From contig JAFXTN010000008.1 of assembly GCA_017535785.1 (NCBI GenBank), positions 279,063 through 343,062 of the forward strand: a DNA stretch of 64,000 nt, written 5' to 3'. The position numbers and the translations under genes are program-made. Below, piece by piece: positions 10,616 through 49,660 of the stretch. The notes under the pieces were generated by a model. The model was given only the letters and a program-made list of their open reading frames with translations, searched no databases and was not told the DNA's origin. The number at the start of each line of letters is the position of its first letter. Position 1 is the stretch's first letter. Source of the DNA: Butyrivibrio sp. (GTDB taxonomy: Bacteria; Bacillota; Clostridia; Lachnospirales; Lachnospiraceae).

Positions 10616-10623
10616 AGGTATCT

Positions 10624-15732: not shown

Positions 15733-16446
15733 ATGAAGACAATAGCACTTATAATTGCGGGCGGAACCGGCGAGAGAATGCATCAGGATATTCCGAAGCA
15801 GTTCCTTACGGTAAACGAAAAGCCCGTGATCGTGTATACGCTCGAGGCGTTCCAGAACCATCCCGAGATCGATTCGATCGCGGTTGTTTGCGTCGATGGT
15901 TGGGAGCAGATGCTTAGAGCTTACGCAAGACAGTTTAATATAGACAAGTTAGACATCGTGGTACCCGGCGGCGAAAACGGCCAGGGCTCAATAAGAAACG
16001 GTGTTTATGAGCTTGAAAAGCACTTTGATAAAGACGACATCGTGCTCATTCACGACGCGATCCGTCCCATGGTCTCTGCTGAGATCATTTCTGATTGTCT
16101 TATGAAGACTAAGCAGTTTGGAAATGCGATCACATCGATCCCCTGCGCGGAGGCTATGCTCACAACTTCAAACGGCGAGGACAGCGAGGAGACTTATCCA
16201 AGAGACAACCTTAAGAGAACTCAGACTCCGCAGGGCTTTAAGCTCGGCGAGATCTGCGACCTTCACAGAGAAGCACTCGAAAAGGGCATCACTAGCTCTG
16301 TTGCTTCCTGCACGCTTATGATCGAGCTCGGTCGCAAGGTCTTTTTCTCACAGGGATCTGAAAAGAACATCAAACTCACAACGGTAGATGATATCGATAT
16401 TTTCAAGGCGCTTCTTATCAGCAAGAGAAGTGAATGGTTAAAATAA
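15733..16446 (+). CDS. IspD/TarI-like cytidylyltransferase linked to LicD
   Basis: A protein of about 238 residues of the IspD family. ALIIAGGTGERM is the CTP-binding loop, IPKQFLTVNEKPV the conserved Lys/Gln region, LIHDAIRPMV the metal site, and LKRTQTPQGF plus NIKLTTVDDI complete the fold. Compared with the second IspD at 62.9 kb it lacks the NRD/W pattern before QTPQ and has the SASC-like segment SVASCTLMIE, pointing to the TarI/ribitol-phosphate or other polyol-phosphate branch. A GTG opens the frame at 15724, but AAGGAG at 15719-15724 lies eight bases before the ATG at 15733, the likely start. Position after licD suggests it supplies a CDP-linked donor for that enzyme. Direct CDP-ribitol synthesis is not proven; no TarJ-type reductase is adjacent. 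Confidence 0.8.
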   Translation: MKTIALIIAGGTGERMHQDIPKQFLTVNEKPVIVYTLEAFQNHPEIDSIAVVCVDGWEQMLRAYARQFNIDKLDIVVPGGENGQGSIRNGVYELEKHFDKDDIVLIHDAIRPMVSAEIISDCLMKTKQFGNAITSIPCAEAMLTTSNGEDSEETYPRDNLKRTQTPQGFKLGEICDLHREALEKGITSSVASCTLMIELGRKVFFSQGSEKNIKLTTVDDIDIFKALLISKRSEWLK

Positions 16447-17965: not shown

Positions 17966-18026
17966 GAAATGTCGTGCGGATCTGCGCATTTAGGTGTTAC
18001 AAAGAATCTTTTTATCGAGGTTACGG

Positions 18027-30530: not shown

Positions 30531-31616
30531 ATGAGAACTTATCTTGTTACAGGAGGAGCCGGATTCATCGGTTCTAACTACATCCATTACATGTTTAAGA
30601 AGTATGACAACGACATCCGTATCATCAATGTGGATGTACTTACATATGCGGGTAACCTCGAGAACCTCAGAGATGTTGAGAATCGCGATAACTATACATT
30701 CGTAAGAGCCGACATCACTGACAGAGAGGCGATCGACAAGATCTTTGCAGAGAACGATATCGACAGAGTTGTTCATTTCGCTGCAGAGAGCCACGTTGAC
30801 AGATCTATCGTTAATCCTGAGATCTTCGTTCAGACCAACGTTCTTGGAACAGCTACAATGCTCAATGCTGCCAAGAAGGCTTGGGAGCTTCCTGACGGAT
30901 CTTTCAAGGAGGGCAAGAAGTTCCTTCATGTTTCAACAGACGAAGTTTACGGAACACTTGATGACGATCCGAATGCATATTTCTATGAGACAACTCCTTA
31001 CGATCCTCACAGCCCTTACTCAGCAAGTAAGGCAGGATCTGATATGCTTGTTAAGGCATATATGGACACATATAAGTTCCCTGCAAATATCACAAACTGC
31101 TCCAACAACTACGGACCTTATCAGTTCCCCGAGAAGCTCATTCCTCTTGTGATCAACAACGCACTTGCAGGAAAGGATCTTCCTGTTTACGGTGACGGTA
31201 AGAACGTTCGTGACTGGCTCTATGTTGAAGACCACGCTAAGGCTATCGATATGGTTCAGGAACAGGGCAGACTTTTCGAGACATACAATGTCGGCGGACA
31301 TAATGAGAAGCAGAATATTGAGATCGTTAAGACTATCATTGACGTTCTCAAGGAAGAGCTTGATGATTCAGATCCCAGAAAGGCACATCTTTCATACGAC
31401 CTTATCAAGTACGTAACAGACAGAAAGGGTCATGACAGAAGATATGCGATCGCACCCGACAAGATCAAGAGTGAGATCGGCTGGGAGCCTGAGACAATGT
31501 TCAAGGAAGGCATCAGAAAGACAATCAAGTGGTACTTCGAGAACCATGATTGGATGGAGCACGTTACAAGCGGCGACTATGAGAAATACTACGAAAAAAT
31601 GTACGATAACAGATAA
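30531..31616 (+). CDS. rfbB: dTDP-glucose 4,6-dehydratase
   Basis: A 361-residue NAD-dependent dehydratase making dTDP-4-keto-6-deoxyglucose in the cytoplasm. TGGAGFIGSNYI is the NAD-binding turn, HVSTDEVYG carries the catalytic Thr/Asp/Glu, YSASKAGSD the Tyr-x3-Lys pair, and SNNYGPYQFPEKLIPL and DWLYVEDHAKAI are RfbB signatures. Its length agrees with RfbB. AAAGGA precedes the ATG. It heads the group rfbB, rfbA, a small membrane gene and rfbC; the fourth rhamnose gene, rfbD, is not in the window. Confidence 0.95.
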   Translation: MRTYLVTGGAGFIGSNYIHYMFKKYDNDIRIINVDVLTYAGNLENLRDVENRDNYTFVRADITDREAIDKIFAENDIDRVVHFAAESHVDRSIVNPEIFVQTNVLGTATMLNAAKKAWELPDGSFKEGKKFLHVSTDEVYGTLDDDPNAYFYETTPYDPHSPYSASKAGSDMLVKAYMDTYKFPANITNCSNNYGPYQFPEKLIPLVINNALAGKDLPVYGDGKNVRDWLYVEDHAKAIDMVQEQGRLFETYNVGGHNEKQNIEIVKTIIDVLKEELDDSDPRKAHLSYDLIKYVTDRKGHDRRYAIAPDKIKSEIGWEPETMFKEGIRKTIKWYFENHDWMEHVTSGDYEKYYEKMYDNR

Positions 31617-31668: not shown

Positions 31669-32538
31669 ATGAAGGGTATTATTTTGGCGGGTGGCTCAGG
31701 AACAAGGCTTTACCCCCTTACAAGAGCGATTTCCAAGCAGATCATGCCTGTTTATGACAAGCCTATGATCTACTATCCTCTTTCAACACTTATGCTTGCT
31801 GGTATCAGAGATGTACTTATCATCTCAACTCCCAGAGATCTTCCTATCTTTGAGGATCTTTTCGGAACAGGCGAGCAGCTTGGTATGCACTTTGAGTATG
31901 CTATCCAGGATCAGCCAAGAGGCCTTGCTGATGCGTTTATCATCGGTGAGAAGTTCATCGGAAGCGACAGCGTAGCACTTGTACTTGGTGACAATATCTT
32001 TTACGGACAGAGCTTTTCTAAGCTCCTTAGAGATGTTGCGGCAAGAGAAAAGGGCGCGACGATCTTCGGATACTATGTTCGCGATCCCAGAGCTTACGGC
32101 GTTGTAGAGTTTGATGAGAACGGAAAGGCTATCAGCATTGAGGAGAAGCCTGAGCATCCCAAGAGCAACTACGCAGTACCCGGACTTTATTTCTACGACA
32201 ACGATGTTGTCGATATAGCTAAGAACGTTAAGCCTTCTGCTCGTGGTGAGATCGAGATCACAAGCATCAACAATGAGTACCTCAGAAGAGGAACTCTTCA
32301 TGTTGAGACAATGGGAAGAGGCTTTGCTTGGCTTGATACAGGCAATCACGATTCCCTTCTCGATGCGGCAGATTTCGTTTGCGCATTCCAGAAGAGACAG
32401 GGACTTTACGTTTCATGTATCGAAGAGATCGCGTATAAGCGCGGATTCATAGATAAAGAGCAGCTTCTTAAGCTTGCGGAGCCACTCATGAAGACCGATT
32501 ACGGTAAGTATCTGGTTGAGGTAGCTAACGGGCTGTGA
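31669..32538 (+). CDS. rfbA: Glucose-1-phosphate thymidylyltransferase
   Basis: A 289-residue enzyme joining dTTP and glucose-1-phosphate to dTDP-glucose, the first step of the rfb pathway. [16 protein letters not shown] is the nucleotide-binding signature, [17 protein letters not shown] the substrate loop, LGDNIFYG the metal site and [12 protein letters not shown] the C-terminal block. An AGGAG site is nine bases upstream and it follows rfbB by 52 bases without a terminator. Confidence 0.95.
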
Positions 32539-33178: not shown

Positions 33179-33724
33179 ATGGGCAAGATAACAGTAGAAA
33201 CATGCAAAATCGAAGGGCTGAAGGTGATCACTCCGCAGGTTTTCGGAGATGCCAGAGGTTATTTTGTAGAGACTTACAATAAGAACGATTTCGTAGAAGC
33301 AGGAATAGATGTAGAGTTTGTTCAGGATAATCAGTCAGCAAGCAAGCAGGGAGTTTTAAGAGGACTTCACTTCCAGAAAGAATTTCCTCAGGATAAGCTT
33401 GTACGCTGCATCAACGGTGAGGTATTCGATGTTGCCGTTGACCTCAGAAAGGGTTCCAAGACTTTCGGTAAGTGGTTTGGTGTAACTCTTTCGGCAGAGA
33501 ACAAAAAGCAGTTTTTTATTCCCAAGGGTTTTGCCCATGGATTTTATGTTTTATCGGAATATGCCGAGTTTGCTTATAAGTGCTCGGATTTTTATCATCC
33601 TAATGATGAGGGTGGACTTATTTGGAACGATCCCGATATTGGAGTAGAGTGGCCTCTCATTGAAGGCGTAGAGCTCAATCTTTCCGACAAAGACACCAAG
33701 TGGGGAGGAATCAAGGAATATTGA
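33179..33724 (+). CDS. rfbC: dTDP-4-dehydrorhamnose 3,5-epimerase
   Basis: A 181-residue cupin-fold epimerase that inverts C3 and C5 of dTDP-4-keto-6-deoxyglucose. DNQSASKQGVLRGLHFQ carries the catalytic His, KLVRCINGEVFDVAVDLR and FIPKGFAHGFYVLSE are family signatures, and the Tyr of EFAYKCSDFY is the usual active-site Tyr. Length and motifs are complete. GGAG precedes the ATG. Its stop overlaps the likely TTG start of the ABC permease, tying sugar synthesis to export. Confidence 0.94.
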   Translation: MGKITVETCKIEGLKVITPQVFGDARGYFVETYNKNDFVEAGIDVEFVQDNQSASKQGVLRGLHFQKEFPQDKLVRCINGEVFDVAVDLRKGSKTFGKWFGVTLSAENKKQFFIPKGFAHGFYVLSEYAEFAYKCSDFYHPNDEGGLIWNDPDIGVEWPLIEGVELNLSDKDTKWGGIKEY

Positions 33725-34740
33725 ATAAGGGATTAGAAATCAGAAGACCCCCCAAGAAGGCATTCTTGGGCGTTTTCTATGTATTGGCACTTGCACTTTT
33801 TCTGTTGCTTGTGCTCCATAAGAATCCTCTTGCAGACCAACATACAGAGATGCTGAAAAAGATTTGCGGAAGTCTTTTGATAGCAATGAGCTGTATAGGG
33901 GTCTCTTTTGGATATGACAAACTGACAGTGCTTCCGGGAGAACTCTTCCAGAACAGGAAGCTCATCAAGAAGCTTGCCATCAATGATTTCAAAAAGAGAT
34001 ACGCAGGTTCCAACTGGGGTATTATCTGGGCATTGGTTCAGCCTATTGTCACAGTTATTTTGTATTACATTGTATTCGGTGTTATTTTCAAGGGCGGAAG
34101 AACCGAAGAGTTGGCAGAAGCGCAGGCTGCAATGGAGGTTCCTCAGGTGTTGTTCCTTACAGCGGGACTCGTTCCTTGGTTCTTCTTTATGGAGGGTCTT
34201 ACCAACGGTACCACGTCACTTCTCGAATATAATTATCTTGTTAAGAAGGTGCTCTTTAAGATAAGCATTCTTCCTGTCATCAAGGTCATCGCGGCCATGT
34301 TTATCCATGTTTTCTTTATACTGCTGCTGTTTGTTGTGGCTGTAATTAACGGATATGGTCCGAGTATTTATTGGATTCAGATAATCTATTACATGGGTTG
34401 TGAGTTCATTCTTATTCTTTCACTTAGCTTTTTAACCTGTTCAGTTGCTGTGTTCCTGAGAGATATCATTCATTTCATCGGTATCTTTATGCAGGTGCTT
34501 CAGTGGGCTACGCCCATTCTCTGGAACATCGAGATGCTTCCGGACAAATACAGATGGATAGTTAAGCTTATTCCCGTGACTTATATCGTAGAGGGCTACA
34601 GAAACTCTATCTATGGTGAGACGTGGTTCTTTGAGCATTTCTATTCATCCACTTATTTCTGGATATGCGTTGTAATATTATTCTGCATCGGCACGCTTGT
34701 ATTTAAGCGCACTAAGCCTCATTTTGCAGACGTATTGTGA
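33721..34740 (+). CDS. ABC-2 polysaccharide exporter permease (Wzm/TagG-like)
   Basis: A protein of about 339 residues. The ABC-2 core starts near residue 85: NDFKKRYAGSNWGIIWALVQPIV is the classical Wzm/TagG entry motif, and the core has about six helices. Before it stand roughly 80 extra residues with two predicted helices (about 15-35 and 50-65) that normal Wzm/TagG proteins lack. The frame is open from GTG at 33700, but the TTG at 33721 overlaps the rfbC stop (TTGA) and has GGGGAGG/AAGGA upstream, so I prefer it. It overlaps the ATPase frame at its stop. Role: moves the finished lipid-linked glycan to the outer face of the membrane. Confidence 0.88.
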   Translation: MNKGLEIRRPPKKAFLGVFYVLALALFLLLVLHKNPLADQHTEMLKKICGSLLIAMSCIGVSFGYDKLTVLPGELFQNRKLIKKLAINDFKKRYAGSNWGIIWALVQPIVTVILYYIVFGVIFKGGRTEELAEAQAAMEVPQVLFLTAGLVPWFFFMEGLTNGTTSLLEYNYLVKKVLFKISILPVIKVIAAMFIHVFFILLLFVVAVINGYGPSIYWIQIIYYMGCEFILILSLSFLTCSVAVFLRDIIHFIGIFMQVLQWATPILWNIEMLPDKYRWIVKLIPVTYIVEGYRNSIYGETWFFEHFYSSTYFWICVVILFCIGTLVFKRTKPHFADVL

Positions 34741-34760
34741 TAAATGACACGGAGAAATAC

Positions 34761-36146
34761 ATGAACAGTGATGTAGCTATAGAGGTCAAGAACCTCAGCA
34801 AATTATATAAGTTGTACGACAAGCCTATCGACAGACTTGCGGATTCTCTGGGACTTGCAGGGAAAAAGCAATTCAAGGAACACCTTGCGCTGAACAATGT
34901 CAGCCTCACGGTCAAGAAGGGCGAGACGGTTGGTATCATCGGAACCAACGGCTCAGGTAAGTCCACGATCCTCAAGATCATCACAGGTGTCCTGACACCT
35001 ACTGCAGGAGAAGTCAACGTAGACGGCCATATCTCAGCTCTTTTGGAACTGGGAGCAGGTTTTAACATGGAATACAACGGAATCGACAACATCTACCTCA
35101 ATGGTATGATGATTGGTTTTTCCGAAGAAGAGATAAATCAGAAGATGGACGCGATCCTTGAGTTTGCGGACATCGGAGATTACGTATATCAGCCCGTTAA
35201 GACTTACTCCAGCGGTATGTTTGTGCGACTTGCTTTTGCGGTTGCCATCAACATCGACCCTGAGATCCTCATCGTCGATGAGGCACTTTCCGTAGGAGAC
35301 GTGTTCTTCCAGGCAAAGTGCTACCACAAGTTTGAGGAGTTCAAGAAGCAGGGCAAGACCATATTATTCGTATCACACGATCTGTCCAGTATCAGCAAAT
35401 ACTGCGACAGAGCTGTGCTTCTCAATCAGGGTGTTCTCATCGGAGAGGGAGCTCCCAAGAAGATGATCGATATCTACAAACAGGTACTTGTGGGACAGTA
35501 CGAGCTTCCATCAAGCGAAGGAGAGAACCTTCTGGACGACGACGATATCCGCAAGGCCGCAGGAGAAGCTGATGAGCGCGCCAATGCGAAGCTCGGCAAG
35601 AGCGACAAGGGCGCGACAGATGCCAAGGCTGGCGACAATGCCGGCGCAGCTTCCAATAAGGCAAAAGATGCAGCGGCTAACCCCAACGCCCTTGAATACG
35701 GCGATGGTAAGGCTGAGATCACGGACTTTTTTGTCACCGATTCCAACGGAACTGTGACATCATCTATCATAAAGGGCACGGAATTCACCGTGCACATGAA
35801 GGTTAAGTTCAAGGAGGATGTTGCGGCACCTATCTTTGCTCTTACCTTCAAGAACATAATGGGTATCGAGATCACAGGTACCAACTCCATGGTGGAGAAG
35901 GCATTCCTTGAGCCTGTCAAAAAAGGTGACGTAAAAGAAATATCTTTTACCCAGAAAATGTCTCTCCAGGGCGGCGAATACCTTCTAAGCTTTGGTGTTA
36001 CGGGCTTTGAACAGAATGATTTTACCGTATATCACAGGTTATATGATGCACTAAATATCACGGTAGTTTCCGACAAGAACACGGTAGGCTACTATGACAT
36101 GAACACAACATGTAAGGTGAAAGACGCAGATGCAGGAACAGATTAA
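34761..36146 (+). CDS. ABC exporter ATPase with Wzt-like C-terminal domain
   Basis: A protein of about 461 residues. The nucleotide-binding domain has Walker A GTNGSGKST at 61-69, the signature YSSGM at 149-153, Walker B ILIVDEAL at 169-176 and the switch His in FVSHD. The H-loop and the GVLTPTAGEV segment match Wzt/TagH. An Ala/Asp/Lys-rich linker (about 245-310) joins it to a C-terminal beta-sandwich (about 310-455) with ITDFFVTDSNG and GGEYLLSFGVTG, typical of Wzt carbohydrate-recognition domains. The frame opens at 34737, but GGAG at 34751-34754 fits ATG 34761. In family members this domain recognises the finished non-reducing end of the glycan, which fits the methyltransferase-kinase that overlaps it by 17 bases. 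Confidence 0.9.
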   Translation: MNSDVAIEVKNLSKLYKLYDKPIDRLADSLGLAGKKQFKEHLALNNVSLTVKKGETVGIIGTNGSGKSTILKIITGVLTPTAGEVNVDGHISALLELGAGFNMEYNGIDNIYLNGMMIGFSEEEINQKMDAILEFADIGDYVYQPVKTYSSGMFVRLAFAVAINIDPEILIVDEALSVGDVFFQAKCYHKFEEFKKQGKTILFVSHDLSSISKYCDRAVLLNQGVLIGEGAPKKMIDIYKQVLVGQYELPSSEGENLLDDDDIRKAAGEADERANAKLGKSDKGATDAKAGDNAGAASNKAKDAAANPNALEYGDGKAEITDFFVTDSNGTVTSSIIKGTEFTVHMKVKFKEDVAAPIFALTFKNIMGIEITGTNSMVEKAFLEPVKKGDVKEISFTQKMSLQGGEYLLSFGVTGFEQNDFTVYHRLYDALNITVVSDKNTVGYYDMNTTCKVKDADAGTD

Positions 36147-38319
36147 GATCGGAAGCGTTACGCTGAACTTCAAACATTACTCAGGGGTTGATCTTTATAG
36201 CGACGGTGCTATAGAGAACGACCTTCTTGAGATTGTAAAAAATCATACAAAAGACGAGTATCAGAAGATAATCGAGGAGCGCGCAAGCTGGCCTATTCTC
36301 TATCATCTTTCGGATCAGAGGGCCAATATCGTAGAGTGGATTCCTATGAGCAAGAACGCCAAGGTCCTTGAGGTTGGCTCCGGATGCGGTGCCATTACGG
36401 GCATGCTCTCAAGTAAGGCTGGGCAGGTTGTAACCTGCGACCTCTCAAGGAGAAGATCTGAGATCAATGCGACAAGGAACAAGGACTGCGACAACGTTAC
36501 AATTCATGTCGGCAATTTCCGCGACATAGAGCCCGACCTTGATAAGGATTTTGATTTTATCTTTTTGATAGGTGTATTTGAGTACGGACAGGGCTACATC
36601 GGCACCGAGAACCCTTACGAGAAGTTTCTTTTGATGCTTAAAAGACATCTCAAAAAAGACGGACGTATAGTTATCGCAATTGAGAATCGCCTCGGACTTA
36701 AGTATTTTGCGGGATGTACAGAGGATCACCTCGGAACATACTTTTCCGGAATCGAAGGATATACCGCGGACAGCGTAGCCAAGACCTTCACAAGGGGCGG
36801 TCTTATCAATATATTCAAAAGATGCAGGATAAACGATTATCATTTCTATTATCCTTATCCCGATTACAAGCTTATGACGCTTCTTCACTCGGATTCATAT
36901 CTTCCGAAGTTCGGAGAGCTTCAGGACAATGTAAGGAACTTCGACAGAGACAGGCTTGTTTTGTTTAACGAAAAGCATGCATACGAGGATCTTGTTAAAG
37001 ACGGCTTGTATCCTGAGTTTGCAAACTCTTTTGAAGTAATAATCGGACCCGGATTCGACACCATCTACAGTAAGTACAGCAATGACAGAGTGGATGAATT
37101 CAAGATCCGTACTGATATCGCGATCGGCAGGAACGGTCGCAAGGTCATAAAGAAATTCCCTCTTACGGAAGCTGCAAGAGAGCATGTATACAGCATCAGA
37201 GATGCGTACGTGGGATTAAAAGAGAAATACCACGGCGGCGATCTGGAGATCAATGACTGTCAGATCGATGAGAACGAGGGCTGTGCCGTATTTTCTTTTG
37301 TCAACGGTGTACCGCTTGCTTCCCTTCTTGATGAGTGTATTGATAAGGACGATATGGAGGGCTTCAACGCTCTTATCGGCGAGTATGTAAAGAGGATCAG
37401 GTACAAGGAGGATTATCCCGTATCCGACTATGACCTTATCTTCAGCAATATTATGGTTAACGGTCCGATCTGGACTATAATAGATTATGAGTGGACTTAC
37501 GGTAAGTGCATCCCTGCAAAAGAGCAGGTGTGGAGGGCACTTTACTGCTACAGGCTTGAAGACAGAAAGAGGGAGAAGTTCGATCCCAAGCCTATCTTCA
37601 AGAAGCTCGGTCTTTCGGAAAAAGAGATGAAGGTGCTCCTTGAAGAGGAGTATGCTTTCCAGAAGTACGTGACCGGCAATCGCAAGTCCATGGTTGAGAT
37701 CTGGAAAGATATAGGCAGAAAGGTCATCGTGCCAAAAGAGCTTGCGATGAACCCTGAAGCAGCTAGGGCTGCGGACTGCATACAGATATATATGGACGAG
37801 GGTACAGGCTATTCCGAGGATGATTCGATCTTCCCCGAGGAGCAGTACGATGAGAAAAATACCGTGACACTTACTATCGAGGTGCCTTCTTCATGCAAGA
37901 CGCTTCGTGTTGATCCGGCTTTTTCGCCTTGTCTTGTGACGATACTTGATGCGACCTGGAACGGCGCTTCAATCGAGGACGGAACGGCTGATATTTCGGT
38001 CGAGCCCGGAAACGGCGAGTGGCTTAGCGATGATTCTTTTGTCTTTAATTCGGATGATCCGAATATTGAATTTGACCTGTCGAGCAGCAGACTTTCGGTA
38101 AAAGAAAACAACAAGCTCGTGCTTAAGCTTCTTACAACGCTTGTTCCGAAGAACGCCGCAGATGCCGTTGCAGCGTCCGTAAAGTCAAACGATGATGACG
38201 ACAAGGAAAAGGTGAGCATCATCCGAAGGATCGGAAGAAAGCTCAAGAATAAGCGCAAGGAACGCCGCGCGGAAGAATATGACTACGAGGATCTAGACGA
38301 TTATATTGACGAGGAGTAA
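36130..38319 (+). CDS. WbdD-like methyltransferase-kinase fusion (putative glycan chain terminator)
   Basis: A 729-residue protein. Residues about 50-250 form a class I SAM methyltransferase with LEVGSGCGAITG at 80-91 and an acidic residue in TCDLS at the second strand. Residues about 325-480 look like a small-molecule kinase of the APH/LPS-kinase fold: a Lys pair in RKVIKKF near 341, and YDLIFSNIMVNG...IIDYEW at 434-455 with Asp435, Asn440 and Asp452 in the order of the catalytic loop and metal site. From about 590 there is a beta-rich domain and a basic amphipathic-looking stretch (IIRRIGRKLKNKRKERR) that could touch the membrane. WbdD of Gram-negative O9a-type systems has the same order, methyltransferase, kinase, then membrane-linked C-terminus, and acts with Wzm/Wzt. 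The kinase call is from motif order and needs structure support. Confidence 0.75.
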   Translation: MQEQIKIGSVTLNFKHYSGVDLYSDGAIENDLLEIVKNHTKDEYQKIIEERASWPILYHLSDQRANIVEWIPMSKNAKVLEVGSGCGAITGMLSSKAGQVVTCDLSRRRSEINATRNKDCDNVTIHVGNFRDIEPDLDKDFDFIFLIGVFEYGQGYIGTENPYEKFLLMLKRHLKKDGRIVIAIENRLGLKYFAGCTEDHLGTYFSGIEGYTADSVAKTFTRGGLINIFKRCRINDYHFYYPYPDYKLMTLLHSDSYLPKFGELQDNVRNFDRDRLVLFNEKHAYEDLVKDGLYPEFANSFEVIIGPGFDTIYSKYSNDRVDEFKIRTDIAIGRNGRKVIKKFPLTEAAREHVYSIRDAYVGLKEKYHGGDLEINDCQIDENEGCAVFSFVNGVPLASLLDECIDKDDMEGFNALIGEYVKRIRYKEDYPVSDYDLIFSNIMVNGPIWTIIDYEWTYGKCIPAKEQVWRALYCYRLEDRKREKFDPKPIFKKLGLSEKEMKVLLEEEYAFQKYVTGNRKSMVEIWKDIGRKVIVPKELAMNPEAARAADCIQIYMDEGTGYSEDDSIFPEEQYDEKNTVTLTIEVPSSCKTLRVDPAFSPCLVTILDATWNGASIEDGTADISVEPGNGEWLSDDSFVFNSDDPNIEFDLSSSRLSVKENNKLVLKLLTTLVPKNAADAVAASVKSNDDDDKEKVSIIRRIGRKLKNKRKERRAEEYDYEDLDDYIDEE

Positions 38320-38329: not shown

Positions 38330-40441
38330 ATGCTTAAAGATTTAGTTAAGAACACTCTTATAACGCAGAGGAAAACTAAATACAATAAGACTTTAAAGGC
38401 CAAATCGGCGGCCTATGACAAGTGGCAGAAGGAAGTCGAGAGACAGCCCGTCATTACTGCCGAGGCTCCGGTTTCTTACGAGGAAGATGAAAACGGAGAG
38501 CTTGTACCGCACAAGCTTCCGGCACCCAAGGTTAAGATAGTTCCTTATGCCAAGGTCTGGGAGATGACGGATGCCAAGAACGATGATAATGTCGTTTATC
38601 TTTTTGTAAGTCCCAAGGGAAAGCTTACAAAGAGGGCTCCCGAGGTTGTTAAACAGTATTTTGTGGCTCACCCGGAGCACAATGTTGTTTACGGAGATGA
38701 AGATGAACTGGGCAACGGCGGCAAATACATTCATCCGTATTTTAAACCCGACTGGTCACCTGATTCATATCTAAACGCTTTTTATATCGGCAGCTTTTTT
38801 GCCTGCAGAGCGAGTGCGCTTCATGCGGCTACTCCCGAGTATGACAATGCGGTCAAGATGCTCGGCGGAACAGCTAATAAGAAGAACTCACCAGAGCAGG
38901 TGGGGCTTGAGGCTTCTCTTTTGTCTGCAGACGTATTGTTCTGTATGCTTGCGATCAGCGAAAGAGCTTTCGCAAAGAGAACGGGAACCGAGCTTCCGAT
39001 AGGACATATCAAGGAAGTTTTGTATCACAGAAACGCGGGACAGGATGTCTTTTACGGAAGATCTTTCCACAATTCAAAGCACATGCTGCTCAAGCCTACG
39101 ACGGTGAGTATCATCATTCCGTCCAAGGACCATCCCGAGATTTTCAGGCAGTGCCTTAATTCGATCATCGAGACGACGAAGGATGTGGGTATCACCTACG
39201 ATATCGTTGTCATTGACAACGGAAGCAGTGCGTCCAACAGAGTCAAGTACGGCGTGTATGCTTCACGAGCGGAGCGAAAGAACGGTCTTACCAAGATCAA
39301 TTACATATACAAAAATCAGGAATTTAATTTCTCCGCGATGTGTAATCAGGGCGTGAGAAATTCAAACGGAGAGTATCTTCTTTTCCTTAATGACGACATT
39401 GAGGCGGTTAAGGAAGGCTGGCTTACCGAGATGGTGTCTCAGGCGCAACTGCGTCACGTGGGCGCTGTCGGAGCAAAGCTCATTTATCCCGATACCGATC
39501 TTATCCAGCATGCGGGAATAGCTAATGTGCGTCGCGGTCCGGTGCACAAGCTTCAGAAGATGCACGACGGAAAGAGTCACTATTTTGGCTACAACAGAGG
39601 CATCCACAATACTATCGGGGCTACGGCTGCCTGCCTTCTTATCAGCAGAAAGAAGTTTCACGATGTCGGTGGCTTCCCCGAGGAGCTTAAGGTTGCCTTT
39701 AATGACGTTGATTTTTGCTACAGCGTTTTTGAAAAGGGTTATTACAACGTTTGCTGTAATCACATATATCTTTATCACCACGAGTCTCTTACAAGAGGTC
39801 TTGATAATTTAGATCCCAAGAAGATGGAGAGGCTTGCGGTTGAGGGCGATACGCTCATGAGGAGACATGCGTATCTTTACAATGTCGATCCTTTCTATAG
39901 CCCGCATCTTACGGAGGATGAGACGATATCTGCGATCATCCCGAGAGAGGATTACACACCTGTTGAAGACATCTCTTATGCGGCTGTTTCGATCCACGAC
40001 AACGGTATCAAGGGCGCGCATGAAGATCAGTGTCTGAGAGTCGGATGCGAGTACAACGGAACCATGGATAACTGGCTCTACGGCGTGAATGCGACCGGCA
40101 ACGAGGAGGGATACTTCCTCAAGGGTTACAGCTTTGTCATCGGTTCGGACAATGCCTTTTATGAAAAGAGATTGCTCCTTCGCCTTGTAGAGAGATTTGA
40201 AGACGGAGCGGGACCTGTAGGAAGCAAGGTTTACAGCTTCCCGATCTATACCTGGTACAGACCGGACATCAGAGTAAGGCTTCAGGATCAGGTGAATGTC
40301 GATCTTACGGGATACAAGCTCAGGATCAAGAAGGGTGACCTTACACCGGGCTTTTATCAGATAGGTATGCTTGCGGTTGATAAGACCGGCAGAAACAAGC
40401 TTATCAACTGGGTTCCCAATATTTTACATATTAAGAATTAA
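38330..40441 (+). CDS. Large GT2 glycosyltransferase, likely rhamnan-type, with degenerate first GT domain
   Basis: A 703-residue cytoplasmic protein. The first GT-A unit is reduced: only its second half is clear, with VYGDEDELGN near 120 and FKPDWSPDSYLNAFYIGS. The second unit is complete: VSIIIPSKDHPE from about 259, VVIDNGSS, LLFLNDDIE near 350 and VAFNDVDFCYSV with the ED/ND acidic site plus HHESLTRG. The C-terminal 140 residues form a beta-rich domain. Two-domain GT2 proteins with HESLSRG-like motifs are common in rhamnose- and hexosamine-polymer loci. Nine bases after the methyltransferase-kinase stop, it belongs to the export operon. Confidence 0.87.
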   Translation: MLKDLVKNTLITQRKTKYNKTLKAKSAAYDKWQKEVERQPVITAEAPVSYEEDENGELVPHKLPAPKVKIVPYAKVWEMTDAKNDDNVVYLFVSPKGKLTKRAPEVVKQYFVAHPEHNVVYGDEDELGNGGKYIHPYFKPDWSPDSYLNAFYIGSFFACRASALHAATPEYDNAVKMLGGTANKKNSPEQVGLEASLLSADVLFCMLAISERAFAKRTGTELPIGHIKEVLYHRNAGQDVFYGRSFHNSKHMLLKPTTVSIIIPSKDHPEIFRQCLNSIIETTKDVGITYDIVVIDNGSSASNRVKYGVYASRAERKNGLTKINYIYKNQEFNFSAMCNQGVRNSNGEYLLFLNDDIEAVKEGWLTEMVSQAQLRHVGAVGAKLIYPDTDLIQHAGIANVRRGPVHKLQKMHDGKSHYFGYNRGIHNTIGATAACLLISRKKFHDVGGFPEELKVAFNDVDFCYSVFEKGYYNVCCNHIYLYHHESLTRGLDNLDPKKMERLAVEGDTLMRRHAYLYNVDPFYSPHLTEDETISAIIPREDYTPVEDISYAAVSIHDNGIKGAHEDQCLRVGCEYNGTMDNWLYGVNATGNEEGYFLKGYSFVIGSDNAFYEKRLLLRLVERFEDGAGPVGSKVYSFPIYTWYRPDIRVRLQDQVNVDLTGYKLRIKKGDLTPGFYQIGMLAVDKTGRNKLINWVPNILHIKN

Positions 40442-40453
40442 TGGATTTTGATT

Positions 40454-42517
40454 ATGTCAGAGCAAAAAGATTTTGATTTTAAAGCCGCATATGAGCGGGA
40501 AAAATTAAAGAGCGCAGACCTTGCTGAGAGGATCGCGGAGCTTGAGGATAAGAATTCGGAGCTTGAGTTTAAGCTCAATCGAATCAAGAATAATCCGATC
40601 TGGAAGGCGAGTACGCCCATGCGTAACACTATGCACTGGGTCATCAGACAGCGCGACCGTATAAGAAATCAGGGATCTCTTCGCGGTGTTATCGCCAAGA
40701 TCAAGTACAAGCAGATCGAGAAAAAGGCGATGACTCACTACGGAACAGAGAGCTTTCCGGATGAGAACACAAGAAAAGAGCAGGAGAATGCGGTTTTTGC
40801 CAACATGACAAAGATCTCTATCCTTGTTCCTTTATACAATACTCCCGAGAAATTTCTTCGCGATATGATCGAGTCTGTGCTTGATCAGACCTATGCAAAC
40901 TGGCAGCTTTGTCTTGCGGACGGATCGGATGAAGCGCATATCGAAGAGGTTTCAAGAATAGTTTCAGAGTACATGAAGGATGCACGTGCACTCGATAAAA
41001 GCGGTGAGTGCAAGATCTCGTACATGAAGCTTGAAAAGAATGAGGGAATAGCCGGAAACACAAACCACTGCCTTGAGCTTGCGGCAGGAGAATACATCGG
41101 TCTTTTCGATCACGATGATATCCTTCATCCCGAGGTTCTCTACTGGTATGTGAAGGCTATCAATGAAGAAAATGCGGATTACATCTATTGTGATGAGACT
41201 ACCTTCAAGGGTGATGACATCAACAAGATGATAACCATGCACTTTAAGCCTGATTATGCGATTGATAACTTACGTGCCAATAATTATATCTGTCATTTCA
41301 GCGTGTTCAAGAGAACTCTGCTTGAAGGAACAGAGCTCTTTAGGACTAAGTTTGACGGAAGCCAGGATCACGATATGATCTTAAGGCTCACCGACAGTGC
41401 GCAGCATATCGTGCATATACCTAAGCTCTTGTATTATTGGAGATCTCACGCAGCTTCCGTTGCGTCGGATATAAGTGCTAAGCCTTATGCGATCGAAGCA
41501 GCGAAGGGCGCGGTAGCGGACCACTTAAAGCGTCACGGCTACGATCACTTCAAGATCACAAGCACGAGAGCTTTCGAGACTATATTTAAGATCACTTACG
41601 AGGTTAAGGGAACGCCCAAGATCAGCATTGTCATTCCTACATGCGAGCATGCTGAGGACCTCAGAAGATGCATTGATTCTATTTATGAGAAGTCTGTTTA
41701 CGACAACTACGAGATCATTGTTGTCGAGAACGGAAGCAAGTCTTCCGAGACTTTAGGCTACTACGAGGAGCTTAGAAACGGCTCGTTAAAAGATATAGTG
41801 AAGGTCGTTGACTTCTATGCGGATCCGGCCAATGCCGTTCCTGCGGGAGAAAAGAGATCTTTTAACTATTCAAAGGTTGTAAACTACGGTGTGTCAAAGG
41901 CTACGGGTGATTACATCATCCTTCTCAATAACGACACACAGGTTATAACAGTAAACTGGATGGAAGAGCTTCTTATGTACGCACAGAGAAGTGATGTCGG
42001 AGCGGTTGGCGGAAAGCTCTACTTCCCTGACAGAAAGATCCAGCACGCAGGTGTTGTTCTGGGACTTGGAGCTCACAGGACAGCGGGACATTCTCATTAC
42101 GGTCAGGCCGGAATGAACCTCGGATACATGGGAAGATTGTGCTATGCGCAGGATGTGAGCGCGGTTACAGGCGCTTGTCTCATGGTTTCGAGGGCGAAGT
42201 ACGATGAGGTAGGCGGCTTCGATGAGTCTTTTGCCGTAAGTCTCAATGACGTGGATTTCTGCCTGAAGCTCAGGGAAAAAGGATATCTCAATGTATTCAC
42301 ACCGTTTGCGGAGCTGTTCCACTATGAGTCGCTTTCAAGAGGCCTGGACCTTGAGGGAGAGAATGCGAAGCGCTACGACGCAGAGTCTGAGCACTTCAAG
42401 GATAAATGGAAAAAAGTTCTCGAAAAGGGAGATCCGTACTATAATCCGAATTTCTCGCTCGACAGAAGTGATTACAGCTTAAATGTCGAAGGTTATTCGA
42501 GTTTGAGAGTGCAGTAA
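40454..42517 (+). CDS. Bifunctional GT2 glycosyltransferase with two complete GT-A domains
   Basis: A protein of about 687 residues. A coiled-coil region rich in Glu, Lys and Leu covers about 15-45. GT domain 1 begins near 119 (TKISILVPLYNTPEKF) and has GLFDHDDILHPE and YIYCDETTF; GT domain 2 begins near 389 (PKISIVIPTCEH) with IIVVENGSKS, ILLNNDTQV and VSLNDVDFCLKL, closing with FHYESLSRGLD. Two active-looking centres suggest alternating additions in a polymer repeat. The start is ATG at 40454, with a TTG six bases before it; no strong ribosome binding site is seen, so coupling to the upstream gene is likely. A weak hairpin follows the stop. Confidence 0.88.
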   Translation: MSEQKDFDFKAAYEREKLKSADLAERIAELEDKNSELEFKLNRIKNNPIWKASTPMRNTMHWVIRQRDRIRNQGSLRGVIAKIKYKQIEKKAMTHYGTESFPDENTRKEQENAVFANMTKISILVPLYNTPEKFLRDMIESVLDQTYANWQLCLADGSDEAHIEEVSRIVSEYMKDARALDKSGECKISYMKLEKNEGIAGNTNHCLELAAGEYIGLFDHDDILHPEVLYWYVKAINEENADYIYCDETTFKGDDINKMITMHFKPDYAIDNLRANNYICHFSVFKRTLLEGTELFRTKFDGSQDHDMILRLTDSAQHIVHIPKLLYYWRSHAASVASDISAKPYAIEAAKGAVADHLKRHGYDHFKITSTRAFETIFKITYEVKGTPKISIVIPTCEHAEDLRRCIDSIYEKSVYDNYEIIVVENGSKSSETLGYYEELRNGSLKDIVKVVDFYADPANAVPAGEKRSFNYSKVVNYGVSKATGDYIILLNNDTQVITVNWMEELLMYAQRSDVGAVGGKLYFPDRKIQHAGVVLGLGAHRTAGHSHYGQAGMNLGYMGRLCYAQDVSAVTGACLMVSRAKYDEVGGFDESFAVSLNDVDFCLKLREKGYLNVFTPFAELFHYESLSRGLDLEGENAKRYDAESEHFKDKWKKVLEKGDPYYNPNFSLDRSDYSLNVEGYSSLRVQ

Positions 42518-45756: not shown

Positions 45757-46730
45757 GCAAAGTCAGCGTGGTAATTCCTTGCTACAACAGCATAAAGTTT
45801 CTCGGAGCATGCCTTAAGAGTCTTTCAAAGCAGACTTATAAGGATTTTGATGTTATCATCGTAAATAACGGCTCAACGGACAAAAGCGCGGATTATGTGC
45901 GCAGGGAGCATCCGAAGGTTAAGCTTATAGATCTTCCCGAAAACACGGGCTTTTCGTGTGCGGTTAACACGGGGATCAAGGCTTCGGACGCCGAGTACGT
46001 CTTTCTTCTTAATGACGATACGGCGTGTGATGAGCATGCTATTGAGGCGCTCGTTGCTACTATGGAGCGCAATAAGAAGGCGTTTGCGGTTCAGGCTAAG
46101 ATGCTTCAGATGAAGCACCCAGAGCTCATCGATGATTCGGGCGATTATTATTGTGCGCTCGGTTGGGCGTTTTCACCGGGACGCGATAAAGAAAGCAGTA
46201 GATTTAAGAAGAAAGCTCTTTTGACAAGTGCTTGTGCAGGTGCGGCTTTGTACAGACGCAGGCTCTTTGATGAGGATATGGTGGGCCTTTTTGATGAGGC
46301 GCATTTTTGCTATCTCGAGGACGTTGATATCGGCTACAGGGCGCGGCTTATGGGATATCAGAACATTTGCGAGCCGGGTGCTGTCGTTTACCACGAGGGA
46401 AGCGGAACAAGCGGCTCCAGATATAATTCATTTAAGGTTGAACTTACTGCGGCGAATAATCTATACTTAATGTATAAGAATATGCCGTTTTTGCAGATAC
46501 TGATCAATCTGCCGCTTATCATCGCGGGCATTTTGGTAAAGCATGCGTTTTATACGAAGAGGGGACTTGGAAGGACTCATCTTAAGGGACTTAGGAAGGG
46601 AATCTCCAAGATATTTAAGAACACAAATAAAAAAGTTAAGTTTGGGAGAAAAGAACTGCGTAATTGCGTGAGGATGCAGCTTGAGCTGTGGATCAACCTC
46701 GCAAGGCGGTTTGGAGCACTCGGTTTATGA
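45753..46730 (+). CDS. GT2 glycosyltransferase, WbbL/rhamnosyltransferase-like
   Basis: A protein of about 325 residues. VSVVIPCYNSIKFLGAC opens the GT-A fold, VIIVNNGSTDKSADYV and FLLNDDTACDEHAI carry the acidic donor residues, and FCYLEDVDIGYRARL with a YHEGSGTSGS tail matches WbbL-like rhamnosyltransferases. A hydrophobic stretch near 250-270 may attach it to the membrane. The longer open frame from 45726 is less likely: the ATG at 45753 overlaps the upstream stop (ATGA) in the same way the downstream gene overlaps this one. Confidence 0.88.
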   Translation: MSKVSVVIPCYNSIKFLGACLKSLSKQTYKDFDVIIVNNGSTDKSADYVRREHPKVKLIDLPENTGFSCAVNTGIKASDAEYVFLLNDDTACDEHAIEALVATMERNKKAFAVQAKMLQMKHPELIDDSGDYYCALGWAFSPGRDKESSRFKKKALLTSACAGAALYRRRLFDEDMVGLFDEAHFCYLEDVDIGYRARLMGYQNICEPGAVVYHEGSGTSGSRYNSFKVELTAANNLYLMYKNMPFLQILINLPLIIAGILVKHAFYTKRGLGRTHLKGLRKGISKIFKNTNKKVKFGRKELRNCVRMQLELWINLARRFGALGL

Positions 46731-48127
46731 TAAAAGATAATCAGGTTCATCTTAACAGAGCGCATGTTATAGTCGACGCCCTTTTGGTGGCGGCTTCCTA
46801 CATTGCCGCATATTTTATAAGATTTGTACTTTTGTGGGGCGACAGACCGAGGACCGGTATTTTGTCGATGCGCACATATTTTATGGCGCTGTATTTTTTG
46901 GTGCCCGGTTATAGCTTCCTGTACTACACGGTTCAGCTGTACACCTCGAAGAGGGCTAAGAGGCTGTGGGATGAATTCAAGGATATCGGTAAGGCCAATA
47001 TCCTCGGAATGATCGCATTCTGGCTTGTATTGTTCTTCTTCAAGCAGGTTCACTTCTCTCGAGGAATGATGGCGGTCTTCTTCGTACTCAATACGACTTC
47101 GACAGCGTTAGCGCATATGATGCTGCGCAAGTTCCTTAGATTTATCAGGAAGCAGGGTTATAATCTTAAGCACATTCTACTTGTCGGATATTCAAGAGCT
47201 GCGGAAGGATATATCAGCAGGATCCTCGACAACCCTCAGTGGGGCTATGTTATCTCGGGTATCCTCGATGATTTTGTCCCGATCGGAACGAGCTATCACG
47301 GTGTGGAAGTTATTGGCGGGATAGAGCAGCTTGAGCATTATCTTGAAAAGCACAGCTACGATGAGATCACGATAACGCTTCCTCTGAATGACTACGACAG
47401 ACTGGAAGAGCTCGTCGCACAGTGTGAGAAATCGGGCGTTCATACCAAGTTTATCCCGGATTATTCATCTCTTTTCCCCAGTAACCCGTTTACAGAGGAT
47501 GTGCAGGGACTTCCGGTTGTAAATATCAGATATGTTCCGCTCACCAATTCGTTTAATAAACTATGTAAAAGAATTGTTGATATCATAGGTTCTATCGTTG
47601 CGATAATCATATTTGCGATCCCTATGGTCGCAGCGGCTATCGCGATCAGGCTTACGAGCAAGGGGCCCGTCATCTTCAAGCAGGAGAGAGTCGGACTTGG
47701 CGGAAAGCTCTTTATGATGTATAAGTTCAGGACGATGGATGTTCAGTCGGAAAAAGAGGAAAAGAAGGGCTGGACGACCAAGGGTGATCCGAGAGTTACC
47801 AATGTCGGAAGGTTCCTTAGAAGAACGAATATCGATGAGCTTCCTCAGCTTTTCAATATCTTATCCGGTCAGATGTCACTTGTGGGACCAAGACCCGAGA
47901 GACCACAGTTTGTTGAAAAGTTCAAGGAACAGATCCCTCGCTATATGGTAAAACACCAGGTTCGTCCGGGACTTACGGGCTGGGCACAGATCAACGGATA
48001 CCGAGGAGATACTTCTATCAGGAAGAGAATTGATTACGATATTTATTACATTGAGAACTGGTCGATGGCATTCGACATAAAGATAATAATAGGTACGTTT
48101 TTACACGGAAATAAGAATGCCTACTGA
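46727..48127 (+). CDS. Polyprenyl-phosphate sugar-phosphate transferase (WbaP/WcaJ-type initiating enzyme)
   Basis: A protein of about 466 residues that starts a glycan by placing a sugar-1-phosphate on undecaprenyl phosphate. Four or five N-terminal helices (about 10-130), a Rossmann-like middle part (HILLVGYSRAAEGYI) and a final helix before the catalytic domain are typical of the long form. The catalytic part has GPVIFKQERVGLGGK, MYKFRTMDV, RRTNIDELPQLFNIL and MSLVGPRPERPQFV, the signatures of the bacterial sugar transferase family. The frame opens at GTG 46688, but ATG 46727 overlaps the upstream stop as ATGA and gives a normal N-terminus. It is the last gene of the glycan operon. Glucose or galactose is the usual first sugar in relatives. 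Confidence 0.93.
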   Translation: MIKDNQVHLNRAHVIVDALLVAASYIAAYFIRFVLLWGDRPRTGILSMRTYFMALYFLVPGYSFLYYTVQLYTSKRAKRLWDEFKDIGKANILGMIAFWLVLFFFKQVHFSRGMMAVFFVLNTTSTALAHMMLRKFLRFIRKQGYNLKHILLVGYSRAAEGYISRILDNPQWGYVISGILDDFVPIGTSYHGVEVIGGIEQLEHYLEKHSYDEITITLPLNDYDRLEELVAQCEKSGVHTKFIPDYSSLFPSNPFTEDVQGLPVVNIRYVPLTNSFNKLCKRIVDIIGSIVAIIIFAIPMVAAAIAIRLTSKGPVIFKQERVGLGGKLFMMYKFRTMDVQSEKEEKKGWTTKGDPRVTNVGRFLRRTNIDELPQLFNILSGQMSLVGPRPERPQFVEKFKEQIPRYMVKHQVRPGLTGWAQINGYRGDTSIRKRIDYDIYYIENWSMAFDIKIIIGTFLHGNKNAY

Positions 48128-48352: not shown

Positions 48353-49660
48353 ATGTCAAATCGAGACGACGAATTTTATGGCAGAGACGGCAGAAGACCT
48401 TCTCGAAGAGATGACAGATATAGAGATGATAGAAGACCCGTAAGAGATTCTAGGGATTCCGGAAGGAGACCCGCAGGCAGATATGACGATTATGAAGACA
48501 GACCTGTCAGAAGAAGAGCTTATGATGAGCGTGACGATTACGGTTCATCTCGCAGAAGTGCATCAGGAGCAGGAGCTTCGGCGTCCAGAGGAGCTCGCAG
48601 AGGCGGCTCAGGTAAAAAGAAGAACAACAAGGCACTTATCTTACTTATTGCAGAGGTGCTTGTTGCGGCAATCCTTGTAGTAGTTGCTTATAATGTATTT
48701 ATTAAGATGGGTGCTACCAAGGTAGGTAAGGTTAACCTTGATGAGGAAGCAATTTCAAGGAGTATCAGTGAGAATGTTGCAGGTAACCAGCAGATGAAGG
48801 GATATACCAACATCGCGCTCTTTGGTGTTGACTCACGTAAGGAAGAACTCAGCAAGGCAAGCAGATCTGATACGATCATTATTGCTTCTATCAATAACAG
48901 CACAGGTGACATTAAGCTTTGCTCAGTTTACCGTGATAATTACTTCAATATAGGCGGCGGCAATTATACTAAATGTAATGCTGCATATGCAAAGGGTGGC
49001 CCCGATCAGGCTATAAAAATGCTCAACTCAAATCTTGATATGGATATCACAGATTTCATTACTATCGGATTCAGAGGACTTACCGATGTGGTTGATGCCC
49101 TTGGCGGAGTCGAAATTGATGTAACTGAGGATGAGATACCTCATATTAATAGCTATGGTGGAACAATGGCTCAGGAGCTTAAGCTTGAGTACAAGCCTAT
49201 AGAGTCTGCAGGAAGACAGACACTTAATGGTCTTCAGGCAACAGCTTACTGCCGTGTCAGATACACAAAGGGCGATGACTTCAGACGTGCCGAGAGACAG
49301 AGAACAGTTCTTATGGCTTGTATCGAGAAGGCTAAGGGAATGGATTATTCCAAGCTCGAGAAAGTTGCAAATGATGTATTCAATGAGACATATACATCAT
49401 TTGACCTCACGGAGATTTTCGCACTTCTTAAGAATGTCGCCAACTACAACGTGGCTGATAACAACGGATTCCCTGAGGAGAGCATGCGTAAGACAGGTAC
49501 TATCGGTAAGAAGGGTAGCTGTGTAGTAGCCAGCGATCTTGAAAGTAATGTTAAGTGGCTTCACGAGTTCTTGTTTAATGAATCCGATTATGAGGTTTCA
49601 CCCACTGTCAAGGAGTACAGTGATAAGATCAAGGCTGACACAAGTCCGTACTTAAACTGA
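48353..49660 (+). CDS. LytR-CpsA-Psr (LCP) glycan ligase with Arg/Asp-rich cytoplasmic N-terminus
   Basis: A 435-residue membrane-anchored enzyme that attaches lipid-linked glycans to peptidoglycan on the outside. Residues 1-86 are a low-complexity Arg/Asp/Tyr/Ser stretch with RDDRYRDDRR-like repeats, ending in a Lys/Gly-rich patch; a transmembrane helix follows at about 94-116. The LCP domain has IALFGVDSRKEEL, SDTIIIASINN, VYRDNYFNI, LGGVEIDVTEDE and YCRVRYTKGDDFRRAERQR with the pyrophosphate-binding arginines. All key residues are present. The N-terminus resembles in composition the much longer cytoplasmic region of the GH25 protein. Downstream is a terminator, so it is monocistronic. Confidence 0.93.
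   Translation: MSNRDDEFYGRDGRRPSRRDDRYRDDRRPVRDSRDSGRRPAGRYDDYEDRPVRRRAYDERDDYGSSRRSASGAGASASRGARRGGSGKKKNNKALILLIAEVLVAAILVVVAYNVFIKMGATKVGKVNLDEEAISRSISENVAGNQQMKGYTNIALFGVDSRKEELSKASRSDTIIIASINNSTGDIKLCSVYRDNYFNIGGGNYTKCNAAYAKGGPDQAIKMLNSNLDMDITDFITIGFRGLTDVVDALGGVEIDVTEDEIPHINSYGGTMAQELKLEYKPIESAGRQTLNGLQATAYCRVRYTKGDDFRRAERQRTVLMACIEKAKGMDYSKLEKVANDVFNETYTSFDLTEIFALLKNVANYNVADNNGFPEESMRKTGTIGKKGSCVVASDLESNVKWLHEFLFNESDYEVSPTVKEYSDKIKADTSPYLN

Follow-up and report, generated by a model that had tools for sequence, protein, structure and literature searches.

An O7-type methyl-phosphate terminator predicted beside a reader-domain Wzm/Wzt exporter in a Butyrivibrio glycan locus

The described system closest to the locus reported here is that of K. 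pneumoniae O7, whose ORF6 was reported to modify O3 of the terminal rhamnose in vitro, first with phosphate and then with methyl (PMC11231755). According to the same source, a D441A variant had no activity in vitro and gave only high-molecular-weight material in vivo, interpreted as unexported, and the layout given for ORF6-N is a methyltransferase, a kinase, and an Ig-like module, followed by a coiled coil (reported in all ORF6 orthologues of that study) and two GT2 modules. In E. coli O9/O9a, WbdD, which has a trimeric coiled coil, is described as adding phosphate and then methyl at the chain end, as required for export (PMC3482155), and the present locus would resemble it in this respect if our reading is right. 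Other systems are reported to use methyl caps. The Wzt of Aquifex aeolicus carries a reader domain, as does the Wzt described below, but its cap lacks phosphate and consists of either 3-O-methyl-mannose or 3-O-methyl-rhamnose (PMC9445017). For its S-layer glycan, the Gram-positive Geobacillus stearothermophilus combines Wzm/Wzt with WsaE, which adds methyl only and has no kinase, and the reading of this terminal-rhamnose cap by Wzt is a prediction of the source (PMC2943079).

Within the class Clostridia, the ABC-exported S-layer glycan of C. difficile SLCT-11 bears a cyclic phosphate on its terminal rhamnose, which its authors likened to O9a (PMC6254364). This glycan resembles the predicted product of our locus in its rhamnose content, its ABC export, and the phosphate at its non-reducing end; however, the phosphate is cyclic rather than a methyl ester and the glycan belongs to the S-layer rather than the wall, the comparison being one of glycans. 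The text of that paper, as searched, mentions neither a methyltransferase nor a kinase and names no capping enzyme. The idea that the cyclic phosphate was an alkali product of methyl-phosphate was dropped because the NMR sample had been prepared by proteinase K digestion (PMC6254364). As far as these sources go, the cap-and-read device has been worked out in detail only in Gram-negatives, and methyl and cyclic phosphate caps are already published for Gram-positives; the first-pass annotation of this locus, which knew of no such description in Clostridia, was thus too wide on this point. We found no report of a methyltransferase-kinase in Gram-positives in the literature.

We analyzed a window of 64,000 nt from Butyrivibrio sp., a Gram-positive rumen bacterium of the Lachnospiraceae (GCA_017535785.1, contig JAFXTN010000008.1, 279,063-343,062 forward). 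All genes and domains given here lie on the + strand of the window. Positions 33700-38319 encode Wzm, a reader-domain Wzt, and a methyltransferase-kinase in overlapping genes, confirming the earlier observation of a permease, an ATPase with a Wzt-like C-terminal domain, and a methyltransferase-kinase that overlap one another. The Wzm-like ABC-2 permease (33700..34740; 346 aa; Pfam ABC2_membrane, 1.5e-14) overlaps the RmlC gene on its upstream side and, by 4 bases, Wzt on its downstream side; its real start codon may sit a few codons 3′ of 33700. Wzt (34737..36146; 469 aa) consists of an ATPase (residues 11-255; ABC_tran, 3.7e-24) and a Wzt_C reader domain (residues 315-462, DNA 35679-36122; Pfam match 8.5e-42 over residues 318-455), and it overlaps by 17 bases the gene for the 729-aa methyltransferase-kinase (36130..38319), a predicted O7-type chain terminator on the basis of profile comparisons. 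The latter has a methyltransferase domain (residues 6-307, 36145..37050; Methyltransf_11, 1.3e-9, over residues 80-182), a kinase domain (residues 312-572, 37063..37845) with K342, D435, N440, and D452-Y-E-W, a beta-rich domain (residues about 577-690, 37858..38199), and a variable tail containing a basic stretch (38200..38316).

Two glycosyltransferase genes follow, which encode a 703-aa GT2 protein (38330..40441) and a 689-aa dual-GT2 protein with a short heptad-like N-terminus (40448..42517). On the upstream side lie genes for a dTDP-glucose 4,6-dehydratase, which we take to be RmlB (30531..31616; Pfam sugar-nucleotide dehydratase/epimerase families), a nucleotidyltransferase, presumably RmlA (31669..32538; NTP_transferase), and RmlC, the dTDP-4-dehydrorhamnose 3,5-epimerase (33179..33724; dTDP_sugar_isom, 1.5e-74). 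Further downstream are a candidate initiating enzyme, a polyprenyl-phosphate sugar transferase (46688..48127; Bac_transf, 1.2e-71), and a candidate wall-attachment enzyme of the LytR-CpsA-Psr type (48353..49660; LytR_cpsA_psr, 9.1e-35). The methyltransferase-kinase is present in one copy in its own genome, where no second Wzt_C was found beyond that of the locus.

Only two Gram-negative relatives of the methyltransferase-kinase were found. For comparison with the O7 type, a Pseudomonas asturiensis protein stood in for the O7 ORF6 sequence itself by way of residue numbering: it has Y28, Y66, G91, G93, E112, and Y158 exactly at the ORF6 numbering, i.e., 6 of 7 published positions (PMC11231755), and F at position 441, the motif aspartate being D443. 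The Lachnospiraceae protein family aligned with this protein by hhalign over 637 columns covering the methyltransferase, kinase, and beta domains (probability 100, E 6e-54). The kinase region alone matched over 189 columns (E 6e-10), scoring 68.6, with none of 40 shuffles exceeding 25.8, and D435 of the window protein paired with D443. The window protein shares five of the six SAM-site residues (as Y23, Y58, G83, G85, and Y152), with D104 replacing E112. The O7 cluster shares with the window the dTDP-rhamnose genes and wzm-wzt, and ORF6-N shares the domain order and a close number for the catalytic aspartate (435 in the window, 441 in O7), with the putative beta-rich domain occupying the position of the Ig-like module. 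The dual-GT2 partner, fused in O7 ORF6, is a separate gene in the window; its product aligns to the Pseudomonas protein within the latter's C-terminal half (37% identity, 3e-124).

The window protein differs from the O7 type in its host, a member of the Lachnospiraceae rather than a Gram-negative, and in stopping after the beta domain. A crude heptad scan detected no long coiled coil after the kinase, with 3 marginal windows in the methyltransferase-kinase and 4 in the dual-GT2 protein, compared to 17 in WbdD, 15 in the Citrobacter relative, and 7 in the Pseudomonas protein. Since a coiled coil is reported in all orthologues (PMC11231755), we regard the window protein as a variant rather than a standard member of the O7 type. 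Also, the Lachnospiraceae loci depart from the O7 arrangement in having the methyltransferase and kinase on separate adjacent ORFs in 8 of 93 cases, and five long ORFs that were examined join the kinase to GT2 modules and to glycosyltransferase modules of other kinds. The final 38 residues of the window protein, in which acidic residues come after a basic stretch, have a net charge of 0, the net charge ranges from -10 to +7 across 19 of 83 fused proteins, and the pattern is common only to a Butyrivibrio-dominated set, which does not bear out the suggestion of a membrane-binding basic tail.

The first-pass annotation had called the protein WbdD-like. A methyltransferase and an active-looking kinase tied to a reader-domain Wzt were indeed found, but kinship with WbdD itself was rejected. 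E. coli HS O9 shares with the window the order of methyltransferase and then kinase and the position behind wzm-wzt, and the weak WbdD alignment pairs the D-x4-N...D residues with each other, as a true homologue would have them. However, the WbdD kinase (211-459), which entered as a single sequence and might score better as a profile, reached 18.3 against the kinase profile versus 17.0 for the best of 40 shuffles, so that its homology was not detectable; the methyltransferase aligned over a generic 83-column SAM-binding core only, and the heptad region of WbdD (490-596) had no equally long counterpart in the crude scan. We therefore find true WbdD homology scarcely credible. By these comparisons, the 729-aa protein belongs with the O7-type methyl-phosphate terminators rather than with WbdD and is predicted to synthesize a terminal methyl-phosphate.

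The Pfam search of the window protein matched no kinase family, and the same search with 61 aligned kinase regions gave two weak APH matches (best 0.003), two choline kinase matches (best 0.024), and other chance-like matches. A profile of the 61 sequences matched eukaryotic-type kinases in the PDB, JAK1 being the best at 3e-5. The matched region spans the N-lobe up to and including the catalytic loop, and the beta-3 lysine, the catalytic Asp, and the catalytic Asn all line up. K342 was conserved in 91/91 rows of the family alignment, and D435, N440, D452, E454, and W455 were conserved in all 90 rows reaching these positions. Judged from the profile match and these residues, the kinase domain looks real and active. 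A dead or protein-directed kinase would leave the methyltransferase alone to cap the chain, as in E. coli O8 or with Geobacillus WsaE, and would fit the missing Pfam match, the Citrobacter relative, which has EREW instead of DYEW, lacks the DFG-type aspartate, and matches weakly in the kinase region (E 1e-4), and the Pseudomonas protein, in which the beta-3 lysine is absent and K342 aligns with H. We nevertheless consider it very unlikely, given the invariant catalytic residues on the Lachnospiraceae side and the genomes whose Wzt_C match was weak at best, 26/28 of which lacked the kinase (at E 1e-15, a cut-off set after data inspection). The kinase has no Pfam model of its own, and two plasmid relatives are annotated merely as methyltransferase or glycosyltransferase.

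Mapping of the co-occurrence with reader-domain Wzt, which the first-pass annotation had suggested, showed a strong association. The kinase was present in 156/299 Lachnospiraceae genomes, i.e., in 149 of the 176 with Wzt_C and in 7 of the 123 without it, and where the reader-domain match was strong (split from weak at E 1e-34, also set after data inspection), 147 of 148 genomes held it. The Wzt_C and kinase genes had identical order and strand in all 88 loci showing both, 78 of them within 100 bases, and RmlC homologues occurred in 63 of the 68 loci of at least 15 kb. A class-wide search with the full-length profile (180/291) returned chiefly short generic methyltransferase matches and was not taken as a count. 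Among 13 neighbor proteins from 11 of 12 added Gram-negative Wzt loci, phmmer with O7-type and WbdD domains gave no match, and the methyltransferase profile gave one weak match (L158, 2e-6).

The best PDB match of Wzt was 8dku (1e-75), which we take to be the Aquifex Wzt. In a first FastTree of 81 rows, 57 kinase-linked reader domains from Lachnospiraceae joined those of E. coli O9, Pseudomonas, and Citrobacter with a support of 0.998; a careful tree of 61 rows, including 25 of the 57, supported the grouping at 84/88, and two very long rows fell within the group. After removal of six long rows (gL156, gL158, gL159, nL146, nL147, and nL148), the Lachnospiraceae and the Gram-negative methyl-phosphate readers grouped at 93/68, and taxonomic alternatives were not rejected (p 0.43 and 0.42). 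The tree was given up as proof of methyl-phosphate reading, and the grouping is a hint.

Because a methyltransferase and an active-looking kinase are tied to a reader-domain Wzt, a phosphate-plus-methyl cap is probably read for export. In our main reading, to which we assign a probability of about 0.72, the locus encodes an O7-type terminator with its cognate exporter. An undecaprenyl-linked, probably rhamnose-containing glycan would be built in the cytoplasm, the kinase of the 729-aa protein would phosphorylate its non-reducing terminal sugar, and the methyltransferase would then methylate the phosphate and end chain growth. The C-terminal domain of Wzt would bind this end such that Wzm/Wzt passes capped chains only, and the LytR-CpsA-Psr protein may then join them to the wall. 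A different decoration, e.g., a cyclic phosphate, a methyl on a sugar hydroxyl with the phosphate placed separately, or modified internal residues, would suit the generic Pfam methyltransferase matches, the loci with separate polypeptides (whose domains need not act on one group), and the 2,3-cyclophospho-rhamnose end in C. difficile SLCT-11 (PMC6254364). We hold it to be unlikely, since the homology covers both domains of a type whose assayed member makes methyl-phosphate, and the tie to the reader-domain Wzt is strong.

Beyond this locus, we tentatively propose, at somewhat less than even odds, that methyl-phosphate cap-and-read export is a common finish of rhamnose-containing wall or surface glycans in Lachnospiraceae, with an O7-type terminator that lacks a long coiled-coil ruler and a methyl-phosphate-specific Wzt reader subtype that tracks it. 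Without such a ruler, chain length would depend on how capping competes with elongation or on a partner glycosyltransferase, and the natural fused, split, and glycosyltransferase-fused versions are material for testing the coiled-coil ruler idea. If this is true, a methyl-phosphate terminator is carried by roughly half of the Lachnospiraceae genomes sampled, accompanied in nearly every case by a reader-domain exporter, and the gut and rumen members of the family gain a predicted glycan end group checkable by 31P NMR. It may also provide the missing enzyme type for the phosphate-capped chains of Clostridia.

Genes encoding RmlB-, RmlA-, and RmlC-like proteins lie on the + strand ahead of those encoding the Wzm permease (33700-34740), Wzt (34737-36146), and a 729-aa protein (36130-38319), which are followed on the same strand by genes for GT2 glycosyltransferases, a phosphoglucomutase, a polyprenyl-phosphate sugar transferase, and a LytR-CpsA-Psr protein; a dual-GT2 protein is encoded at 40448-42517. 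Consistent with the exporter parts claimed in the first-pass annotation, Pfam searches confirmed the permease, the ATPase and the Wzt_C (reader) domain of Wzt (8.5e-42), and the methyltransferase of the 729-aa protein. The window's own genome has a single copy of this protein and a single Wzt_C. Judging by 38 related loci in named genomes, 36 of which are from Butyrivibrio (L005 and L039 coming from one isolate), the source is a Butyrivibrio relative.

We compared 93 loci, namely the window, 38 of the Butyrivibrio-dominated set, 14 more, and 40 chosen for spread, some of the latter picked because each appeared as a pair of separate matches. The methyltransferase and the kinase-like region were fused in 83 of the 93 loci and encoded by two ORFs in 8 (gaps of -23 to 1 bases). 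The methyltransferase was not found at the threshold in 2 of the 93: L039, truncated at the edge of its contig, and L040. Where a reader-domain Wzt and the methyltransferase were both visible, they had one strand and one order (88/88 loci), lying at most 100 bases apart in 78 of the 88 and 3.6 kb at the maximum. Because possession of the methyltransferase-kinase was the basis for choosing the loci, and many of them are closely related, this result speaks to linkage rather than frequency.

The kinase region of the window protein had no match in Pfam, nor in the PDB by phmmer. We aligned 61 of the 91 regions found, with residue 306 as the first column; the rows set aside were L047, L085 (truncated at a contig end), and 28 from the Butyrivibrio-dominated set. 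Nine columns were invariant in all 61 rows, including K342, D435, N440, D452, E454, W455, and R469; across all 91 rows, K342 was present in 91/91, and the D435, N440, D452, E454, and W455 set in 90/90, L085 stopping ahead of these residues. The 61-row profile matched PDB kinases, with JAK1 the best (3e-5) and the match spanning the N-lobe through the catalytic loop; the kinase proposed in the first-pass annotation thus looks real. An additional, divergent protein with a 798-aa open frame occurs in two genomes of the genus to which the window belongs; its match to the methyltransferase-kinase profile covers positions 140-495 in G207:C18:671318-672472 and 140-493 in G475:C16:279639-280787.

The proposed likeness to WbdD was not supported at the family level. 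WbdD was absent among the best 60 of 320 PDB matches of the kinase profile. We used the E. coli HS gene product (708 residues, annotated merely as a methyltransferase), which has D351, W355, N356, and D369 in place (numbers from the available part of PMC3482155). Its alignment with the full methyltransferase-kinase profile was confined to 83 columns, all in the SAM-binding core (probability 62, E 8e-5). For its kinase, the score was 18.3, with 40 shuffles reaching 17.0. The two kinases likely share a superfamily, since the weak kinase alignment puts the catalytic residues in register.

When 72,556 plasmid records were searched with the window protein (tblastn), two relatives emerged, one from Citrobacter braakii and one from Pseudomonas asturiensis, each encoded immediately after wzm-wzt. 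We built a profile from 49 sequences, comprising the window protein, 44 relatives in other Lachnospiraceae, and 4 members of the Butyrivibrio-dominated set; against it, the Pseudomonas protein aligned over 637 columns (probability 100, E 6e-54) and the Citrobacter protein over 468 (E 8e-48); their kinase regions alone scored 68.6 (shuffle maximum 25.8) and 36.1 (24.7). As described in the accessible text of PMC11231755, the K. pneumoniae O7 terminator, ORF6, comprises a methyltransferase, an unannotated kinase (catalytic D441), an Ig-like module, a coiled coil, and two GT2 modules, with orthologues in alpha- and gammaproteobacteria and cyanobacteria. In vitro, the enzyme adds phosphate at O3 of the terminal rhamnose and then methylates part of that phosphate; the D441A variant lacks both activities, and in vivo yields high-molecular-weight material alone, unexported in the authors' reading. 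Because six residues (Y28, Y66, G91, G93, E112, and Y158) sit exactly at the published O7 numbers, we infer that the Pseudomonas protein is a close ORF6 orthologue; it has F at 441, the aspartate of its D-x4-N motif being D443. Its GT half matched the window's dual-GT2 protein (37% identity, 3e-124), and thus what is one polypeptide in O7 appears to be divided among separate genes here. The kinase was fused to glycosyltransferase modules in all five long ORFs examined from other Lachnospiraceae.

With a profile built from the reader domains of kinase-linked loci, which themselves score 201 to 262 bits by construction, those of E. coli O9, Citrobacter, and Pseudomonas scored 51 to 63 bits, that of E. 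coli O8 (methyl only) 48, and controls 16 to 44; the controls came from 19 Lachnospiraceae genomes (20 loci in all) that have Wzt_C and no kinase at 1e-15 (G043 having a match at 8e-6). In a 55-row tree, the kinase-linked Lachnospiraceae domains formed one group (support 99/98) and E. coli O9, Citrobacter, and Pseudomonas another (99/84); their union had 93/68, and taxonomic alternatives survived testing (p 0.43 and 0.42). The grouping of O9, whose terminator kinase is unrelated, with the O7-type readers of Citrobacter and Pseudomonas is a hint, and no more, that the reader domain follows cap chemistry. In L132-L151, loci with a reader-domain Wzt in genomes without a strong kinase match, different proteins surround wzt, and terminators of other cap types may be among them.

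Among 299 family genomes, 166 had a match to the kinase profile at 1e-5, which in 156 was below 1e-15; Wzt_C was present in 176. Using the 156, both were present in 149 genomes, Wzt_C alone in 27, the kinase alone in 7, and neither in 116, for which a Fisher p-value is not meaningful given common ancestry. At a Wzt_C cut of 1e-34, set post hoc, 147 of 148 genomes had the kinase, and 9 of the 156 kinase genomes lacked such a Wzt_C. The kinase was rarer outside Lachnospiraceae: in a phylum draw of 348 genomes, 23 matched at 1e-5, and of the 6 that matched below 1e-30, 2 belong to other families; in a class-wide draw of 291, the full profile fell below 1e-40 in eight genomes of other families.

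Elsewhere in the window, a 1321-aa protein (24934-28899) has a long, acidic N-terminus of Asp/Glu/Arg/Tyr-rich repeats (tandem repeats at 25097-25866), its C-terminal part being a GH25 muramidase that carries a choline-binding repeat; the LytR-CpsA-Psr protein (48353-49660) has an Arg/Asp-rich low-complexity start of similar composition. Regions 9155-12117 and 16448-19097 each encode what we take to be an MBOAT-like acyltransferase paired with a second protein. Genes at 848-3405 and 14702-16446, presumably CDP-glycerol glycerophosphotransferase-, cytidylyltransferase/oxidoreductase fusion-, LicD-, and IspD-like, hint at a second, teichoic-acid-like pathway next to the rhamnose cluster.

The first-pass annotation knew of no description of such a cap-and-read length control in Clostridia. 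A Wzt-read methyl cap has been proposed for the Geobacillus S-layer glycan (available part of PMC2943079), and a 2,3-cyclophospho-rhamnose ends the ABC-exported rhamnose glycan of C. difficile SLCT-11, for which the authors speculate a role as in O9a (available part of PMC6254364), so a clostridial phosphate cap is already published. What stands is narrower: among the matches listed (titles and abstract starts, with subscription journals mostly outside coverage), no paper described a methyltransferase-kinase terminator in Gram-positives. The SLCT-11 cap also adds weight to the reading that the window's domains make a cap other than methyl-phosphate, which we nevertheless consider unlikely.

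In the reading we favour, a methyl-phosphate cap, the kinase would phosphorylate the chain end, the methyltransferase would methylate that phosphate, and growth would stop after capping. Of the proposed steps, length control is the least secure, because a crude scan found no long coiled coil in the window protein, whereas WbdD and O7 ORF6 have one, thought in WbdD to work in length control (available part of PMC3482155). The glycan likely contains rhamnose, as RmlC homologues occur in 63 of the 68 loci that span 15 kb or more; a LytR-CpsA-Psr homologue lay inside the flanks covered in 3 of the 68, a count that does not establish linkage. Wzt_C would let only capped chains through to the pore, and, given its gene 10 kb downstream, we infer that the LytR-CpsA-Psr protein may join the glycan to the wall.
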